IMG/VR virus record: IMGVR_UViG_3300047319_000712 | Coordinates: 1-28,435 of that record | Direction: 5' to 3' (one strand) | DNA: 28,435 bases | Source of the DNA: a virus | Shown here: in pieces, positions 21,892 to 28,185 of the stretch | Layout of the letters: each line of letters opens with the position of its first letter | Position numbering within the stretch: position 1 is the first letter of the stretch | Notes under the pieces: model-generated | Databases searched by the model: none | What the model was told of the DNA's origin: nothing | The model's input: only the letters and a program-made list of their open reading frames with translations | Program-made: the position numbers and the translations under genes

Positions 21892-22313
21892 ATCGAAGGG
21901 GTGTCCTCCGTTCGCATTGGAATCCGGTTCGCGCTTCCCCACGCGCCGAACTGATCCGATGTGGGCGGCACTTCGGCCTGGGTAATGGTGGAAATGTCCT
22001 TGGCGATGTCGCGTAGATGCGCGAGTGCGTTGTCGCGTTCTTCGCGCCGGATCTCAGTGAGCAAAGTTCCGGTAGGCTCCTGAGCCAGATACGTTGCGCG
22101 AGCAATCGCAATCGCGTCATCTACGACTTCCGGTGGAATCGAGGGAGCGACTTCCAACGGGTTGCCGCCAGCCGCGACGTAACCACGGCAGTAGTTACAG
22201 GCCGACAGCACACAGCTATCCAAGTCCTGCAAAGGCGCAACGCCTTCCATAATCGACTTCTCGGTATCGAGCAGCCTGATGTCGTCCCCTGAGATCGTTT
22301 TCCAGTTAGCCAT
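21888..22313 (-). CDS. Head-tail connector, DUF1320 (Mu gp36)-like, 141 aa
   Basis: The centre (VVDDAIAIARATYLAQEPTGTLL then RREERDNALAHLRDIAKD) matches in build the gp36-type connector proteins of Mu-like phages: an adaptor domain helix bundle with an acidic/basic helix pair. The N-terminal part contains CVLSACNYCRGYVAAGGNPLE. The C-terminal 25 residues look disordered. It overlaps the methyltransferase gene by 8 bases and the MuF gene by ATGA. The family call is from memory of the pattern and position. Confidence 0.6.
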   Translation of the reverse strand: MANWKTISGDDIRLLDTEKSIMEGVAPLQDLDSCVLSACNYCRGYVAAGGNPLEVAPSIPPEVVDDAIAIARATYLAQEPTGTLLTEIRREERDNALAHLRDIAKDISTITQAEVPPTSDQFGAWGSANRIPMRTEDTPSI

Positions 22314-22953
22314 TTTTCTTGAACACTCCCATATCCCAGCCGCCTTCGGCTTTGTTTGCGCTCAGGATCTCGCCCAGCCCCCAGTCTTTGCGCTTTCCGC
22401 TTAAAAGGCCGAGATCGTAGCAAGCACCCCAGACATCAATGCCATCCTTGCAATGCGGCTGCGCGTGGCCGCGCTGCTCTGGGCTGATGTCATGAAACAT
22501 CATGATGCTCTGGTCAACCATCCACGCTTCCAGCGCGAGGAAATCCAGCGTGGCGCAGGGCTTACCGTGGCAACCGTCGATCAGTGCAAAGTGAATCGGT
22601 TCCTGCCAGTGTTCGGTAAGGAAGGACTGCGAATCCTGAAAGTAAATCGTGACTTCGTTCCACGGTGGATGAACGATGGAGCAGTTGGGCGTGATGAAAT
22701 TCAGTTTCAGTTCTCGACGAAGTGCGATGGCTTCGGTACGCTCTCGGCTGAATGAGTAACCGTTGGGTAATTCGATACCGATTGCTCGCCATCGCTTTGC
22801 GGCAGATTGAAATACTTCTGCTATTGCGGTTAAGGTCGTTCCTTCTCCGACTCCTATCTCGACATACGTGACTTCATCGAAACGCGTGGCAATGTCCCTT
22901 GCGTAAGAGAGAACCCGATCTTCCAAACCGTTCATGGCGATTCCCAGTGTCAT
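22306..22953 (-). CDS. SAM-dependent class I methyltransferase, 215 aa
   Basis: Motif I of Rossmann-type methyltransferases is clear at residues 31-39 (VEIGVGEGT). An acidic strand-end follows at 58-62 (GIELP), and later come FALIDGCHGKPCATLDF (123-139) and IMMFHDI (150-156). The IDG-H and FHD motifs resemble the Methyltransf_24 group often found with glycosyltransferases in surface-sugar clusters, where they methylate sugars. It starts in an ATGA overlap with the glycosyltransferase, so the two are probably made and used together. The substrate is not shown; virion glycan, host surface sugar or a nucleotide sugar are all possible. Confidence 0.75.
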   Translation of the reverse strand: MTLGIAMNGLEDRVLSYARDIATRFDEVTYVEIGVGEGTTLTAIAEVFQSAAKRWRAIGIELPNGYSFSRERTEAIALRRELKLNFITPNCSIVHPPWNEVTIYFQDSQSFLTEHWQEPIHFALIDGCHGKPCATLDFLALEAWMVDQSIMMFHDISPEQRGHAQPHCKDGIDVWGACYDLGLLSGKRKDWGLGEILSANKAEGGWDMGVFKKNG

Positions 22954-23777
22954 GCTGCTGCGTACTGCGCTTGAGGGTTAAGGATCGAGAGCGCGTAGGT
23001 GGCTACGTCTTCGGGGAAAGTGCGATACAGTTCCAGGCAACCCGTTTCACATGAAGCGCGGAAACCGTTCTCTGGCAGACAATGGCAACCCGCGCATGGC
23101 AATGCTTTTTTTCGGTAGGTGGTCACTTCGGGAACGTGAGCGTAGATCCGTTCCGTGGCCGATCCGCAAAGTGCAATCGTCGGTGTCCCGATTGTGCCAG
23201 CCAGATGCGCCGGACCACTGTCGTTGCCTATGACCAGCCGCGCTGATTGGATGGCAGCACTGATCCAGTCCCAACTCTTGCCCACGATGCAGTGGAAGGG
23301 CATGAAGAAAGCGTTGTCACGTTGCTCCGTGCAGACCTTCACGCTGTAGCCAGCGTTGCGAAGCAGCAGCCCAAGCTCGACGAAATAAGAAGAAGGCCAG
23401 GTGCGAACACGCGAGAAACATTGCGGGAAGATGATGACATCCGCGCTGTCCCTGTGACCCATCTCCCGATCCATCGGTTTCATTTCCAGCCGTGGCCGCT
23501 TTGGTGTCGCGCTGATGCCCAGCTTGTGAGTGATCCACTGGACGTAGGAGTAGGGCAGTTTCAATCTGACCGCTGTCTCGTAACCCTCCTGCGTAAGCAC
23601 CGCACCTGTGGGGTCATCGGTTACAGGCATCTGGAACATCTTGAGCATGTCCGCTCGCCAGCCCGTAGCGTACAACTCCACTGCTTCGCCAGCCTGGATC
23701 ATTCCTTCACCAACCCATGCAAAGCACACGATGTCACCGACACCGTTGAACCATCCGTTGAAGGTATCAATTTTCAT
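22950..23777 (-). CDS. Glycosyltransferase family 9 (heptosyltransferase-like), 275 aa
   Basis: The GT9 hallmark is present at residues 180-205 (ARLVIGNDSGPAHLAGTIGTPTIALCGSA), which binds the nucleotide-sugar donor. An N-terminal GVGDIVCFAW matches the GD start motif of the family. The C-terminal part has seven cysteines, in CAGCHC and SCETGC. GT9 enzymes add heptose or related sugars to lipopolysaccharide cores. At 275 residues it is shorter than the usual 320-350, so part of the N-terminal Rossmann fold may be reduced. It follows the capsid gene after a 78-base gap with an inverted repeat and overlaps the methyltransferase. An enzyme inside a head gene cluster suggests sugar modification of the virion or of the host envelope. 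Confidence 0.8.
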   Translation of the reverse strand: MKIDTFNGWFNGVGDIVCFAWVGEGMIQAGEAVELYATGWRADMLKMFQMPVTDDPTGAVLTQEGYETAVRLKLPYSYVQWITHKLGISATPKRPRLEMKPMDREMGHRDSADVIIFPQCFSRVRTWPSSYFVELGLLLRNAGYSVKVCTEQRDNAFFMPFHCIVGKSWDWISAAIQSARLVIGNDSGPAHLAGTIGTPTIALCGSATERIYAHVPEVTTYRKKALPCAGCHCLPENGFRASCETGCLELYRTFPEDVATYALSILNPQAQYAAA

Positions 23778-23855: not shown

Positions 23856-26039
23856 TTACCTTGCGGAACCTGTTCCCGCTGCGGCTTTAATCAGTTGTCC
23901 TGCGGCAGTCTGCCCAGGTGCGCTGCCCCACATGAGCGCGATCCGGCTTGTGGCCGTGCCGAGCGTGTGGTTGACGTACTGGACCTGCATGACCGTGATC
24001 CCGATGTCGGGGTCAGTGACCATCTGGACGTTGCCAAATGAAGCACCTGGCAAAACAGATGTGTAGTCATTCGGTGTCCGAGTGGCAAGGCACAGGGCGG
24101 ATTTGCTGCCAGCGAACCCAACGAGGTTCGCGTTGTTACTCGGCAGGTTGGGGGCCGAGTAAAGCTGGAACGAATCCACTGTGATTCCCAGCGTGGTGTC
24201 TTCCTGAGTGCCTTCGGTGATGATGGAAGGTTGCGGAACATTCGTCCCGAACTGGACCATCGTGGCGTCTTTCTTCACGCTGCCAAACGCGTTCGGCCAC
24301 AGGAGCATCGTGCGCCTCCCAAGACCCAACGGAACGCCGCGCAATTCCAGCGCAGTGCCGATGTCCACTACAGCATTGCGGGTGAACGCAGCCGAAGTCG
24401 AGATCGTGTTATTGGTGTAGTTGGCATCGGTCAGGTTCGCGTAAAGCGAATCGACCATTGCCTTTGCCAGCGCGTAGGCACTTGCCTCGGCGAACTCCTC
24501 AAAGAGTTTCCGCATCGTTGTGGCGAGCAGGTTCTCGTTGAAGGTGATCGGCACGCCCTTGTGGTTGTTGATGACCACAGGCACATCGGTTGTCGCAGCC
24601 ACTACATCTGCCCAGCCCGTCGCTGTCGAATATGTAACGACGCTTGGAATCGTCACAATCCTTGTCATGATCGTCTGGTTGTAGGTTGCGGGTTGATCCG
24701 AGAAGTCCGTCGTGAAACGGACTAGGGCTGGGAACTTAAACTTGAGCAGTTCCAGTGTTCGGAGCGTGACCAACGTGCCAGCGATTGTGCCAAGGTTGGC
24801 GTCGGTAACATCCGCTGCCATGATCGCATCCTGGAACATTTCCAGGCGACTGTTTACCAGGCGAGTGCGAACGTCCTTGTTCTTGTCGGTTTCGCTGAAC
24901 GCACTGGCGTAAACCGCGCCGACATCCAGGCCGATCTTGGCTTTCTCCTCGCGGGTTGTGGCTCGCGCTCCGTTCTGTAGCAACGTCGCCATCTTTGCGA
25001 AGACCGCGCCTGGATCTTCGCTGGTGATGCTGACGGAACTTCCGCCGCCACCAGGAGTGTTTGCTGGGACGAAACGCTCCCTCAACGACGCACCTGGGCC
25101 TCCGAAGGCGTCGATGATGTTGATGAAGGACGGATCGACTGTCGCCTTGGCAACCAACTCAGCGCGAAGCTGAAGGTTCTTCGGCGCGATTGCCTGACGT
25201 TTCACAGCGCGATCCACTGCTGACTCAGCGTTGGACTTGTTGCGCCGCTCGATTTCCTTGGCCTGAATAGCGGACTGCGCTTTCAGTTTTTCGTTTTCGA
25301 TCTCAAGATCAGTAGCGCGAGCTTGTGCGCGGTACTTCTCAAGCTGTTCCTTGGCACTGTCGTCGTCAGTGTTCTTGGCGACTATCGCCTCCAACTCTGC
25401 GATCTTTGCTTTTTGCTCCTCATTTTTCGCCTGGAGCGCAGCGATTTCTTCCGGTGTCATTTTTGACTTCTCCTTTGTTGTTGTTTCGCTGGATGCTCCA
25501 GCGGCGACGGGTGATCCGTCATTTTTTGCCCACATGGGCAAATTGTTAAAAGCTGGGTCATTGACGAGGCCTCCCATGTTGACCCGCGCCCCGTCATAGC
25601 AGACGACCTTCGCTGGATCTTTGCGCTTGTCGTCCACATGGAACACTGGTGAGAACGCGCGGTAGTCTTTTCCTTCCACCGCTTTCTTCCCGCTCGCGCT
25701 CCACTCGCCTTTGGCGACTACACCTTCTGTTGGTCGCCAGATGAAACTGTCGGGCCAAAAGGATGCCGCCCCGTCCTCATGGTTAAAATCAAAGTAAACT
25801 TTCTTTCCGGTGCGAGCGGTGATGGCGGCGCGCTGCTGCTCAATCGCACCAGCAGTGTTGGCGTCGATGAACACTTTGATCGGGCGACCAATGCCACCGG
25901 AAACGGGCGTGATCTCATGAACGCCAGCCGGAAGAAAGACGATCTCGTTCTTGTCCATCGCAGCGATGGCAACTGCGGCACGACATTCCACTGCTCCATT
26001 ATCGTCATCGCCATCCTTGCATGTAAGTGGTGTTTTCAT
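23856..26039 (-). CDS. Fusion of capsid maturation protease, scaffold and major capsid protein, 727 aa
   Basis: One uninterrupted frame joins three parts. Residues 30-175 match Mu I-type head proteases: IVFLPAGVHEITP, VYFDFNHEDGA (His at 87), VAKGEWSASGKKAVEGKDYRAFSPVF in pieces, and GLVNDPAFNNLP. Residues 195-275 form a charged coiled coil (EEIAALQAKNEEQKAKIAEL) typical of scaffolds. From about 330 to the end is an HK97-fold-like major capsid protein, with VPVVINNHKGVPITFNENLL and ASAYALAKAMVDSLYA. The first ATG has no Shine-Dalgarno, while Met194 at 25460 has AAGGAG with 9 bases of spacing, so a 534-aa scaffold-capsid product may be made in larger amount. Fused scaffold-capsid genes are known; adding the protease in the same frame is rare. 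Confidence 0.8.
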   Translation of the reverse strand: MKTPLTCKDGDDDNGAVECRAAVAIAAMDKNEIVFLPAGVHEITPVSGGIGRPIKVFIDANTAGAIEQQRAAITARTGKKVYFDFNHEDGAASFWPDSFIWRPTEGVVAKGEWSASGKKAVEGKDYRAFSPVFHVDDKRKDPAKVVCYDGARVNMGGLVNDPAFNNLPMWAKNDGSPVAAGASSETTTKEKSKMTPEEIAALQAKNEEQKAKIAELEAIVAKNTDDDSAKEQLEKYRAQARATDLEIENEKLKAQSAIQAKEIERRNKSNAESAVDRAVKRQAIAPKNLQLRAELVAKATVDPSFINIIDAFGGPGASLRERFVPANTPGGGGSSVSITSEDPGAVFAKMATLLQNGARATTREEKAKIGLDVGAVYASAFSETDKNKDVRTRLVNSRLEMFQDAIMAADVTDANLGTIAGTLVTLRTLELLKFKFPALVRFTTDFSDQPATYNQTIMTRIVTIPSVVTYSTATGWADVVAATTDVPVVINNHKGVPITFNENLLATTMRKLFEEFAEASAYALAKAMVDSLYANLTDANYTNNTISTSAAFTRNAVVDIGTALELRGVPLGLGRRTMLLWPNAFGSVKKDATMVQFGTNVPQPSIITEGTQEDTTLGITVDSFQLYSAPNLPSNNANLVGFAGSKSALCLATRTPNDYTSVLPGASFGNVQMVTDPDIGITVMQVQYVNHTLGTATSRIALMWGSAPGQTAAGQLIKAAAGTGSAR
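25470..25475 (-). promoter_or_regulatory. Internal Shine-Dalgarno for scaffold-capsid product
   Basis: AAGGAG on the - strand lies 9 bases before ATG 25460, in frame within the fusion gene, exactly at the border between protease and coiled-coil scaffold (KEKSKM). It is a better ribosome site than the one at the gene's own start. The lambda C/Nu3 pair uses the same principle of a nested start. Confidence 0.65.
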
Positions 26040-26046
26040 GGTGGTG

Positions 26047-26274
26047 TTAAACGCAGACTTTCAGCCTGTGGTATTCCAGGCGGGTTAGCTCGGCAGTTTC
26101 CGTGCTGTTCATTTGGAAGGTGTACAGGTTGGGATCTTCCAGGCGTTCTGCGGCCTGATCGTGTTGCCCAAAACTCGGAGAGGACTCACCCTCTGTTGGC
26201 ATCTTGCTCTGAGGGGTGTTTTCAAACTTCGCCTGGTCCTCGTTGCCGCTCGATTTGGTGATGTGTTTAGTCAT
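26047..26274 (-). CDS. Small hypothetical protein, 75 aa
   Basis: The first two thirds are polar and probably disordered (SSGNEDQAKFENTPQSK). The C-terminus reads LYTFQMNSTETAEL, then EYHRLKVCV, and shares a motif with the end of the neighbouring 97-aa protein: aromatic-x-aromatic-x-M-x-S-T ... L-x-x-x-E-Y-x-R-L-K. It ends seven bases before the capsid fusion start and may be co-translated with it. A scaffold or portal-associated role is possible from position; no family is recognised. Confidence 0.5.
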   Translation of the reverse strand: MTKHITKSSGNEDQAKFENTPQSKMPTEGESSPSFGQHDQAAERLEDPNLYTFQMNSTETAELTRLEYHRLKVCV

Positions 26275-26278
26275 GGGG

Positions 26279-26572
26279 TTAGGAGTGGAGTTTCAGCCGT
26301 TCGTACTCCTCTGGACTGAGCGGCACATCGCCCACGGTGCTGCTCATGGTGTAGTTGTAGGTGGACTTGCCTTCCTTTTCTTCGGGCGGTGTTGGAGTGT
26401 CTTCGCTTTTCGCCTGTTCGTTTTCAGGTGGCGGATGCAGTAACAGGTCGGAAGCTTCCAGTGCGGCGATGATCTCGGCCTTGCGAGCGTCATATAGGAT
26501 TTCGATGCCGCGTTTTTCTGCCAGGTCTTTCAACTCAGGCACAGTTAGTTCTTCGTAGTTAGTTGGGGTCAT
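26279..26572 (-). CDS. Small protein with SAP/Rho-N-like N-terminus, 97 aa
   Basis: Residues 6-43 (YEELTVPELKDLAEKRGIEI, then ARKAEIIAALEA) match the helix-extended-helix build of SAP, HeH or Rho N-terminal domains, which bind nucleic acid. A Pro/Glu-rich linker follows. The C-terminal 27 residues (TYNYTMSST, LSPEEYERLKLHS) share the motif seen in the neighbouring 75-aa protein. The ATG overlaps the portal stop (ATGA). A link between packaged DNA and head interior is conceivable but not shown. Confidence 0.55.
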   Translation of the reverse strand: MTPTNYEELTVPELKDLAEKRGIEILYDARKAEIIAALEASDLLLHPPPENEQAKSEDTPTPPEEKEGKSTYNYTMSSTVGDVPLSPEEYERLKLHS

Positions 26573-28185
26573 GATGGTTCCTTTGTTGTTGCAATGATCT
26601 CACTGGCGAGAGCGAGGACTGCTTTGGTAAATGTGGCTTCGTCTTCGATCTGCGAAATTTCTTCCAGCTTGCTCTCCACTGGAGTCTGACCTGGCTTTTT
26701 CTTCGGAGCGTTGGGGTCAGGCTTTTTGTCAATCGGGCTAGTGCCTTTCGGTCCTGCTGGGGCTGGCTTGCCATCGGGTCCAACCGAAGTGGGCGGCAGT
26801 TGCTTCTCGGTCACTTCCTCGTCCCCAGTGGGTTCGGGGATCGCGTACTTCTGCCGCATGTGACTGAAGGGAATCGGGATTCCCATGTTGGCGAGAACCT
26901 GATCGCGCTGCGCGTCCTGGTAAGTGCCAATCGTTTCCTGGAGGAATCGGCAGGAAGGAGCTTCCTTCTTGTCGCCATAGTTGAACATCAGGATCGCGGG
27001 GATGAATTGTCGGTTGATGATGTTGGCGATGTAATCACAGGCGGCATCCAGCCGATCCTGTTTCAGTTGCGCTTCCACCGTTCCAAAGGCCTGACCGCCG
27101 CGCCCACTGGCGATTGTCTGACCCGTCATGGTCTGTCCCAGGAGGAGTGTTCGCGCATAGGAGTCTGCGCGGTCCAGGAGATCGCCCTGTGGAGTGTGGC
27201 CACTGTGCGCCATCGTGGACTCCTTCAGTTCCATCGTGGTCCCTTCAGGGAACGCCGCCCAACCCGCGCTACCCATGTTGGCGAGCATCTGTCCAATGAT
27301 CGACACGGTTTCGTCCGGCGTGGCCGCTGCATACGACGCCCACCGGAAAGGCAGTCCAAAGACTTGTGCCAGGTTCAGCAGCCAGTCGCTGGAAAAGTTG
27401 GCCGCGCACCACCACCACGCCAGCGGACGCAGGAGTGGACCGCCCAGGGGATTGCCTGACTGGATCTTGTTTATCCCGATCAAAAATTTGTTCTCTGGGA
27501 AACGAGTGAGCGTGGCCTGACGCGGATTAGAGTTGGTGATCCCGTATCCCTGCGGCGCGTTGGGATCAGTCAGTCCGAGAACCCCTTCCGAACTCCATGC
27601 GTAGGAAACAGGGTTGACCCAGTAGGTTGACTTGGGACACCAGATCGTTCCCTGGTTCTCGGTGTCGCAGGTGTCCCACAGGATCTCCAGGACGCTCACT
27701 CCCTTGAACCAACCATCCATGAGATCTTTGATCGTTCCTTCCAGATCGTTCTCGTCCATCGTGGGATCTGGGTTCATGTTATCAAAGGCGCAGGTGACGA
27801 GCTTCTCACGATCAATCGCGCTGGGAGTCGCCATCTTGTCCTCCTCGGAGTAGGGGTCAAACACGATGTCGCGCCGTGTTACCCCGTACTCCAGTTCGGT
27901 CTTGCAGGATGCCAGGACAGGCCAGGAATCCAACATGAGTGTGAGAAGTTCCCATTGCTGGATGTGATTCCCAGCCAGTGCGCCGCGCAGCGTTGTCTCG
28001 ATGTAGTTAGGCGTGATGGCACGGAGGGAAGGCAAGATCCAGCGGAACGACGCCTGGTTTCTCAGGATGCGGTTCAGTGCGCTGGTGGGATGTGTCCCGT
28101 TGCCGTTGGAGGAGTAACCGTTCTTAGGAGGCTTCGGCTTGCGCGGAGGCTTCGACGCTGCTGCTTTGACTGCCCTGGACTTCAT
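26569..28185 (-). CDS. Portal protein, DUF935 (Mu gp29)-like, 538 aa
   Basis: The body shows the DUF935 pattern: LDSWPVLASCKTELEYGVTRR, LMDGWFKGVSVLEILWD, ENKFLIGINKIQSGNPLGGPLLRP in pieces, and LDRADSYARTLLLGQTMTGQ. The family forms the dodecameric portal through which DNA enters and leaves the head. The first 30 residues are Lys/Pro-rich and basic, and the last 100 are Pro/Lys/Glu-rich and probably disordered, so only about residues 40-430 are the portal core. It overlaps the terminase gene (ATGA), as usual for terminase-portal pairs. Confidence 0.85.
   Translation of the reverse strand: MKSRAVKAAASKPPRKPKPPKNGYSSNGNGTHPTSALNRILRNQASFRWILPSLRAITPNYIETTLRGALAGNHIQQWELLTLMLDSWPVLASCKTELEYGVTRRDIVFDPYSEEDKMATPSAIDREKLVTCAFDNMNPDPTMDENDLEGTIKDLMDGWFKGVSVLEILWDTCDTENQGTIWCPKSTYWVNPVSYAWSSEGVLGLTDPNAPQGYGITNSNPRQATLTRFPENKFLIGINKIQSGNPLGGPLLRPLAWWWCAANFSSDWLLNLAQVFGLPFRWASYAAATPDETVSIIGQMLANMGSAGWAAFPEGTTMELKESTMAHSGHTPQGDLLDRADSYARTLLLGQTMTGQTIASGRGGQAFGTVEAQLKQDRLDAACDYIANIINRQFIPAILMFNYGDKKEAPSCRFLQETIGTYQDAQRDQVLANMGIPIPFSHMRQKYAIPEPTGDEEVTEKQLPPTSVGPDGKPAPAGPKGTSPIDKKPDPNAPKKKPGQTPVESKLEEISQIEDEATFTKAVLALASEIIATTKEPS

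Follow-up and report, generated by a model that had tools for sequence, protein, structure and literature searches.

A Mu-type viral capsid gene combining protease, scaffold and major capsid protein in one reading frame, with a very likely nested start at the protease/scaffold border

To build its head, a tailed phage uses capsid protein subunits by the hundred; of the protease it requires only some, and this enzyme has to be locked inside the shell. In phage lambda, the protease gene C carries a nested start for the scaffold protein Nu3; the protease is of the S49 type and the capsid gene E is separate, with D in between. HK97 gp5 joins a scaffold, the delta domain, to the capsid protein in one chain, but the HK97 protease, gp4, is separate. 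The herpesvirus UL26/UL26.5 pair supplies two chains with a common end, one of protease and scaffold and a shorter one of scaffold only; here the shorter chain comes from a separate promoter rather than a nested translation start, and the capsid protein is again separate. In phage Mu, the start of Z is nested in the protease gene I, Z being scaffold alone, and the capsid protein is the product of a separate gene, T.

All three functions have also been found in one gene. The Salmonella phage Gifsy-2 reportedly has a protease-scaffold-capsid gene, said to be the subject of Effantin et al. 2010 (Virology 402:355), a paper whose title is cited in PMC8538268 and PMC3121763. A gene of this kind is an ‘apparent common feature’ of small-genome actinophages (PMC7302621; also PMC5513430, which likewise states that HK97 gp5 is a scaffold-capsid fusion). 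The actinophages concerned belong to Microbacterium cluster EE, Arthrobacter clusters AN/AX/FE and Gordonia clusters CW/DM, and include Rhodococcus phage RRH1 (PMC7302621, PMC5513430). With three functions in one chain, the stoichiometry appears to be fixed at one to one, a constraint that a nested start would easily relieve.

The DNA analysed here, a stretch of 28,435 nucleotides from an environmental phage, referred to below as the window, contains a tripartite capsid gene of a Mu type (Table 1). Its frame runs through 727 residues with zero internal stops. The initial annotation had proposed that protease, scaffold and capsid protein share this frame, and the proposal is confirmed by the open reading frame itself, by matches to PF10123, PHROG 328 and PHROG 283, by the helices of the structural model and by the existence of fused homologues. 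Homology, structure and the comparison of related sequences all speak clearly for the three-part anatomy. The idea that a fusion of all three parts is without precedent cannot be kept, since such fusions have been published for Gifsy-2 and for the small-genome actinophages (PMC7302621).

Table 1. Features of the capsid gene and its surroundings in the window, and border codons of other fusion genes
Feature	Position	Strand	Basis
Tripartite capsid gene, protease-scaffold-major capsid protein, 727 aa	23856..26039	(-)	ORF; 38 distinct fused homologues
Mu protein I-type prohead protease domain, residues ~28-172	25524..25958	(-)	PF10123, PHROG 328, H87/S130, Foldseek BFVD
Shine-Dalgarno AAGGAG of internal start, 9-nt spacer	25470..25475	(-)	Sequence; duplex -8.7 kcal/mol
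Internal start codon ATG, residue 194, counterpart of Mu Z start	25458..25460	(-)	ATG in 20/20 close relatives; A-richness peak; Mu Z at L145:1591
Scaffold domain, residues 194 to ~405	24825..25460	(-)	Model helices; separate protease-scaffold protein of split relatives ends here
Major capsid protein domain, residues ~408-727, HK97 fold	23859..24818	(-)	PHROG 283, Foldseek, starts of separate homologues
Small upstream ORF, stop 7 nt before first ATG	26047..26274	(-)	ORF list; coupling putative
Mu-type portal protein, upstream context	26569..28185	(-)	PF06074, E 4.6e-64
Border top codons of other fusions	Gifsy-2 M221, CF28b M220, p16 M270, RRH1 M274, GMA5 M265, GRU3 M262, McGonagall M276, Coeur M307, Moloch M160, Kels M176, Root M178, Atraxa M165, Piku M196, Whytu M196, BlueFeather M204, Corgi M210, BrokMonster M164		

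The protease had been placed at about residues 30-175, which agrees well with the domain limits found. The window protein matches the Pfam family Mu-like_Pro (PF10123) at E 1.7e-14 and 54.5 bits (gathering score 25.2), and residues 29-294 match PHROG 328, ‘head maturation protease’, at E 7.5e-20. Two putative catalytic residues, H87 (codon 25779-25781) and S130 (codon 25650-25652), are invariant in nine diverse members, including the I protein of phage Mu, and are present in all 31 rows of alignment A1. When an AlphaFold model of residues 15-300 (mean pLDDT 77) was compared by Foldseek with BFVD, it matched a predicted Mu-like I protein (E 1.6e-12) and a COG3740 head maturation protease (E 1.3e-4). 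The same search of the PDB gave no significant match, with herpesvirus proteases recurring at E ~0.5-3.

Long helices begin at residue ~195 of the model. The scaffold, originally placed at 195-275, reaches to ~405: the coiled coil spans ~195-285, and residues 335-390 look like a C-terminal scaffold part. The capsid part belongs to the Mu T kind of major capsid protein and has the HK97 fold. Residues 442-582 match PHROG 283, ‘major head protein’ (E 2.5e-13), and a Foldseek search with the AlphaFold model of residues 285-727 finds HK97-fold capsids (E 4.4e-13, prob 1.00). The HK97-like assignment made earlier is therefore retained, but its border at about 330 has to be moved, because the separate capsid proteins of two split relatives (L137 and L142), when aligned to the fused proteins, start at the equivalent of residue ~408, placing the scaffold/capsid border near 405.

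IMG/VR was scanned with the window protein and with alignments A1 and A2, and the matches were sorted by two profile HMMs. The yield was 38 distinct fused genes, about as many genes for the protease-scaffold part alone and three truncated genes. The uninterrupted frame thus recurs in 38 distinct contigs, with identities down to ~30-40%, and there are two near-identical copies of the gene (L002 and L003), each from another metagenome. A sequencing error hiding a stop or a frameshift had been a concern; it is excluded because the same open frame is found in 38 distinct contigs, including L002 and L003. For a fusion produced by faulty assembly or sequencing, or by decay of a prophage gene, no supporting sign was found, and its chance is vanishingly small in the face of so many uninterrupted frames from independent contigs and of the near-identical copies in other metagenomes, and the error explanation was rejected as refuted by these comparative data.

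In a protease tree of 75 rows, the fused genes form one side of a branch with an SH-aLRT value of 99, so that a single fusion event is the simplest reading. Four contigs (L137, L138, L139 and L142) have, directly behind the protease-scaffold gene, a separate gene for a homologous capsid protein (E 1e-16 to 2e-18). In L031-L033 and L038 the match is to the protease part only; the layouts of L031, L032 and L038 read as protease-scaffold gene, a small gene of ~126 codons and a separate gene of ~310 codons, and the ~310-codon gene of L031 matches the capsid family PF03864. Assembled-genome labels are Verrucomicrobia for L035, L036 and L038 and Acidiferrales for L037, and the capsid domain occurs in 16 of 289 genomes of the phylum of L036 (Verrucomicrobia), where fused and split forms are both present. 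No fused gene was found among 50,697 records of isolated phages; the only match in these records is Akkermansia phage Chantilly, in which protease and capsid protein are encoded by two genes with 3 nt between them. Two contigs have the protease and scaffold parts in two overlapping frames (L128:5857-6980 and L129:2194-3287), reflecting either sequencing errors or a frameshift arrangement.

A ribosome binding site at the protease/scaffold border (ATG 25460) had been thought to be better than that of the first ATG. In the window this is upheld by its Shine-Dalgarno duplex of -8.7 kcal/mol, compared with +1.2 at the first ATG (26039). The ATG at the position of residue 194 is kept in all 20 close relatives, amid a variable linker, and the duplex is -5 or lower in 17 of them (85%) compared with 10% of 234 other in-frame ATGs; the Shine-Dalgarno sequence is weak in L006, L008 and L015. 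When the seven codons upstream of the internal ATG were replaced synonymously, the recoded duplexes reached the observed mean in 59 of 2000 simulations (simulated mean -5.4, observed -6.4). The Shine-Dalgarno sequence by itself is therefore modest evidence and was set aside as a sole proof of the internal start, local openness and A-richness giving a much better separation. The surroundings of the internal ATG are the most open and A-rich part of the gene. Across 35 fused genes, folding of the mRNA is far weaker there than elsewhere in the genes (MFE -2.0 versus -11.9 kcal/mol), and the 24-nt leader is 56% A compared with 22% in the gene, a content above synonymous expectation (0.56 versus 0.47; Wilcoxon p 1.7e-10, a value that ignores relatedness). 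In the alignment average, the A content of the whole gene peaks on exactly the M194 column (0.57, against a mean of 0.24 and sd of 0.07). M194 also ranks first, with a score of 14.7, among the 26 in-frame ATG/GTG codons of the window gene in the start scan described below.

Not every part of this initiation signature is present in every fused gene, but it has been kept in evolution. Deeper fused branches (e.g. L023, L036, L037, L091 and L095) have no Shine-Dalgarno sequence at the internal start, with the A-rich open leader mostly kept, and the basal L034/35, L068, L100 and L113 are without the A-richness. The same open, Shine-Dalgarno-bearing leader is found at the Mu Z start inside gene I, whereas the annotated lambda Nu3 start does not have the open-leader part of the signature. 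An equivalent start has been described in the Mu-like phage PaMx73 (PMC4378225). To judge from the sequence, internal initiation at ATG 194 is very likely, and we conclude that this codon is the Z start of Mu, retained by descent; since the fusion it would initiate a scaffold-capsid chain. A third start, for the capsid part alone, was sought in alignment A2 and in the start scan, and no conserved Met accompanied by initiation signals was seen near residue 400.

The best explanation of the locus, to which we assign a probability of roughly 0.8, is an in-frame fusion, within a head module of the Mu type, of the protease/scaffold gene (I, containing the nested Z) with the capsid gene (T), the joint gene being read from two starts. 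The homologous protease with its H87 and S130, the capsid family and the nested scaffold start at the same border are all shared with Mu. Initiation at the first ATG would give a 727-residue protease-scaffold-capsid chain and initiation at ATG 194 a 534-residue scaffold-capsid chain. As the scaffold and capsid parts are common to both chains, these would probably build the procapsid together, so that the full-length chain would carry the protease inside. The short chains would bring most or some of the shell and the long chains the protease, which is likely to cut at the protease/scaffold border (~175-195) and near ~405. In this way the protease would remove itself, the scaffold would be digested or released, and a mature capsid protein of ~320 residues would be left.

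A single product could also be envisaged: a 727-residue polyprotein cut in cis or trans, in which M194 does no more than begin the scaffold helix and the A-richness comes from a flexible linker rich in Lys, Asn, Thr and Glu. The linker is indeed rich in these residues, their choice predicts much of the Shine-Dalgarno strength in the recoding simulations, and some fused relatives have no Shine-Dalgarno sequence. This alternative is nevertheless unlikely, as it does not account for A-richness beyond synonymous expectation, for a Met retained throughout the close relatives inside an otherwise variable linker, for the annotated internal start of Mu Z at the homologous position or for the same arrangement in unrelated fusions. 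A quantitative variant of the two-start explanation, which we regard as rather unlikely, is that productive initiation occurs mainly or only at the internal start, the first ATG being barely used and the protease arising from rare coupled reinitiation off the small upstream ORF. The first ATG does lack a Shine-Dalgarno sequence and lies just past the stop of that ORF, from which coupled translation is possible. However, in 13 of 18 comparable close relatives it is the first start that has the stronger Shine-Dalgarno sequence. A low protease dose is therefore an unconserved property, and the initial annotation's picture of few protease-bearing and many scaffold-capsid chains, drawn from the weak first ATG of one phage, is not supported.

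The stronger Shine-Dalgarno sequence of the first start is often AGGAGG-like and lies ahead of an extra N-terminal DUF6582 domain. In about half of the close relatives DUF6582 (PF20223) stands in frame before the protease as a fourth domain (L016, E 1.4e-18; L005, L009, L010, L012, L019 and others), mostly with a strong Shine-Dalgarno sequence at its own ATG.

The Gifsy-2 gene resembles the window gene in having protease, scaffold-like and capsid parts in one gene and, where protease and scaffold meet (residue 221), an in-frame ATG with GAGGAG. However, its protease is of the ClpP type (PF00574, E 4.3e-38) and its capsid family is PF25209, so that the two fusions are independent; PF00574 is not matched by the window protein, whose match is to PF10123, and the Gifsy-2 gene was ruled out as a homologue by its protease family. 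The actinophage fusions likewise place three functions in one gene, most with a top-scoring internal start at the border, but they have an HK97-type protease (Peptidase_S78, where Pfam detects one) and belong to phages of ~14-18 kb. Since the Gifsy-2 protease is of the ClpP type and the actinophage ones are Peptidase_S78, protease type identifies the Mu-type fusion as a separate lineage, independent of both.

In the start scan, every in-frame ATG/GTG of 21 annotated fusion genes (three ClpP-type and 18 actinophage) was ranked by a score combining Shine-Dalgarno strength, local openness and codon; the score was composed by us with the border sites of Gifsy-2, RRH1 and Moloch already known and is uncalibrated on known starts. 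In 17 of these 21 fusions with unrelated proteases, the highest-ranked codon is the one at the protease/scaffold border. The exceptions are Idaho, PensacolaC28, where the border codon (GTG216 with AGGAGG) is second, and Emperor and SallySpecial, where the top start (M121 and M134, respectively) apparently comes before the protease. In the eight genes whose protease is delimited by Pfam, the top codon is in the border in all eight, the border holding 9-20% of candidate codons; for the other nine of the 17 the border was judged by eye. The fusions have higher top scores than 20 control genes taken from the same phages (median 12.9 versus 8.3; Mann-Whitney p 1.4e-5), the Gifsy-2 capsid gene, for example, being scanned with terminase, portal and tape measure genes as controls. 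Single control genes score as high, with 13.5 for the Gifsy-2 portal gene and 14.0 for an internal ATG (residue 118) of the window portal gene. As the latter is so close to the value for M194, the score alone proves no initiation; the portal ATG may be an internal start, or else a false positive that illustrates how far the score can be trusted.

Many of the scanned fusion genes are mutually related, and the independent evidence perhaps amounts to three or four lineages. A nested border start seems, from these sequence signals, to be shared by most known tripartite fusions, and may be a general and apparently unreported property of tripartite capsid genes; the literature searched yielded no report of nested starts in such genes, though Effantin et al. 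2010 may discuss one. We lean towards the view that the nested border start is both general and convergently kept, such that ClpP, HK97 and Mu I-type fusions would all make two co-terminal capsid polyproteins, with and without protease, and set the dose and placement of the protease by translation. If true across unrelated fusions, this would be a design rule of capsid assembly, testable by one start-codon mutation, and annotations as ‘protease-capsid fusion’ would miss a second, possibly major, product.

Some RRH1/Gordonia fusions (L151:4439-6424, L174:751-2610 and L179:853-2760) have ~100 extra N-terminal residues, which are membrane-like in RRH1. A membrane-protein gene may have been fused or overlapped too, because the top starts of Emperor and SallySpecial lie between the extra N-terminal part and the protease. 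In the Gifsy-2 stretch, neighbouring genes are annotated as virulence determinants.

Within the head cluster of the window, two genes lie directly behind the capsid gene, one methyltransferase-like (PF13578) and one GT9 heptosyltransferase-like (PF01075), at 22306-22953 and 22950-23777 (-), respectively; these are possible virion modification genes. On the upstream side, the consecutive small ORFs 26279-26572 and 26047-26274 (-) have a common C-terminal motif (YNYTMSST...EYERLK and YTFQMNST...EYHRLK), which suggests a duplication, and the first of the two has a Rho_N/SAP-like N-terminus.
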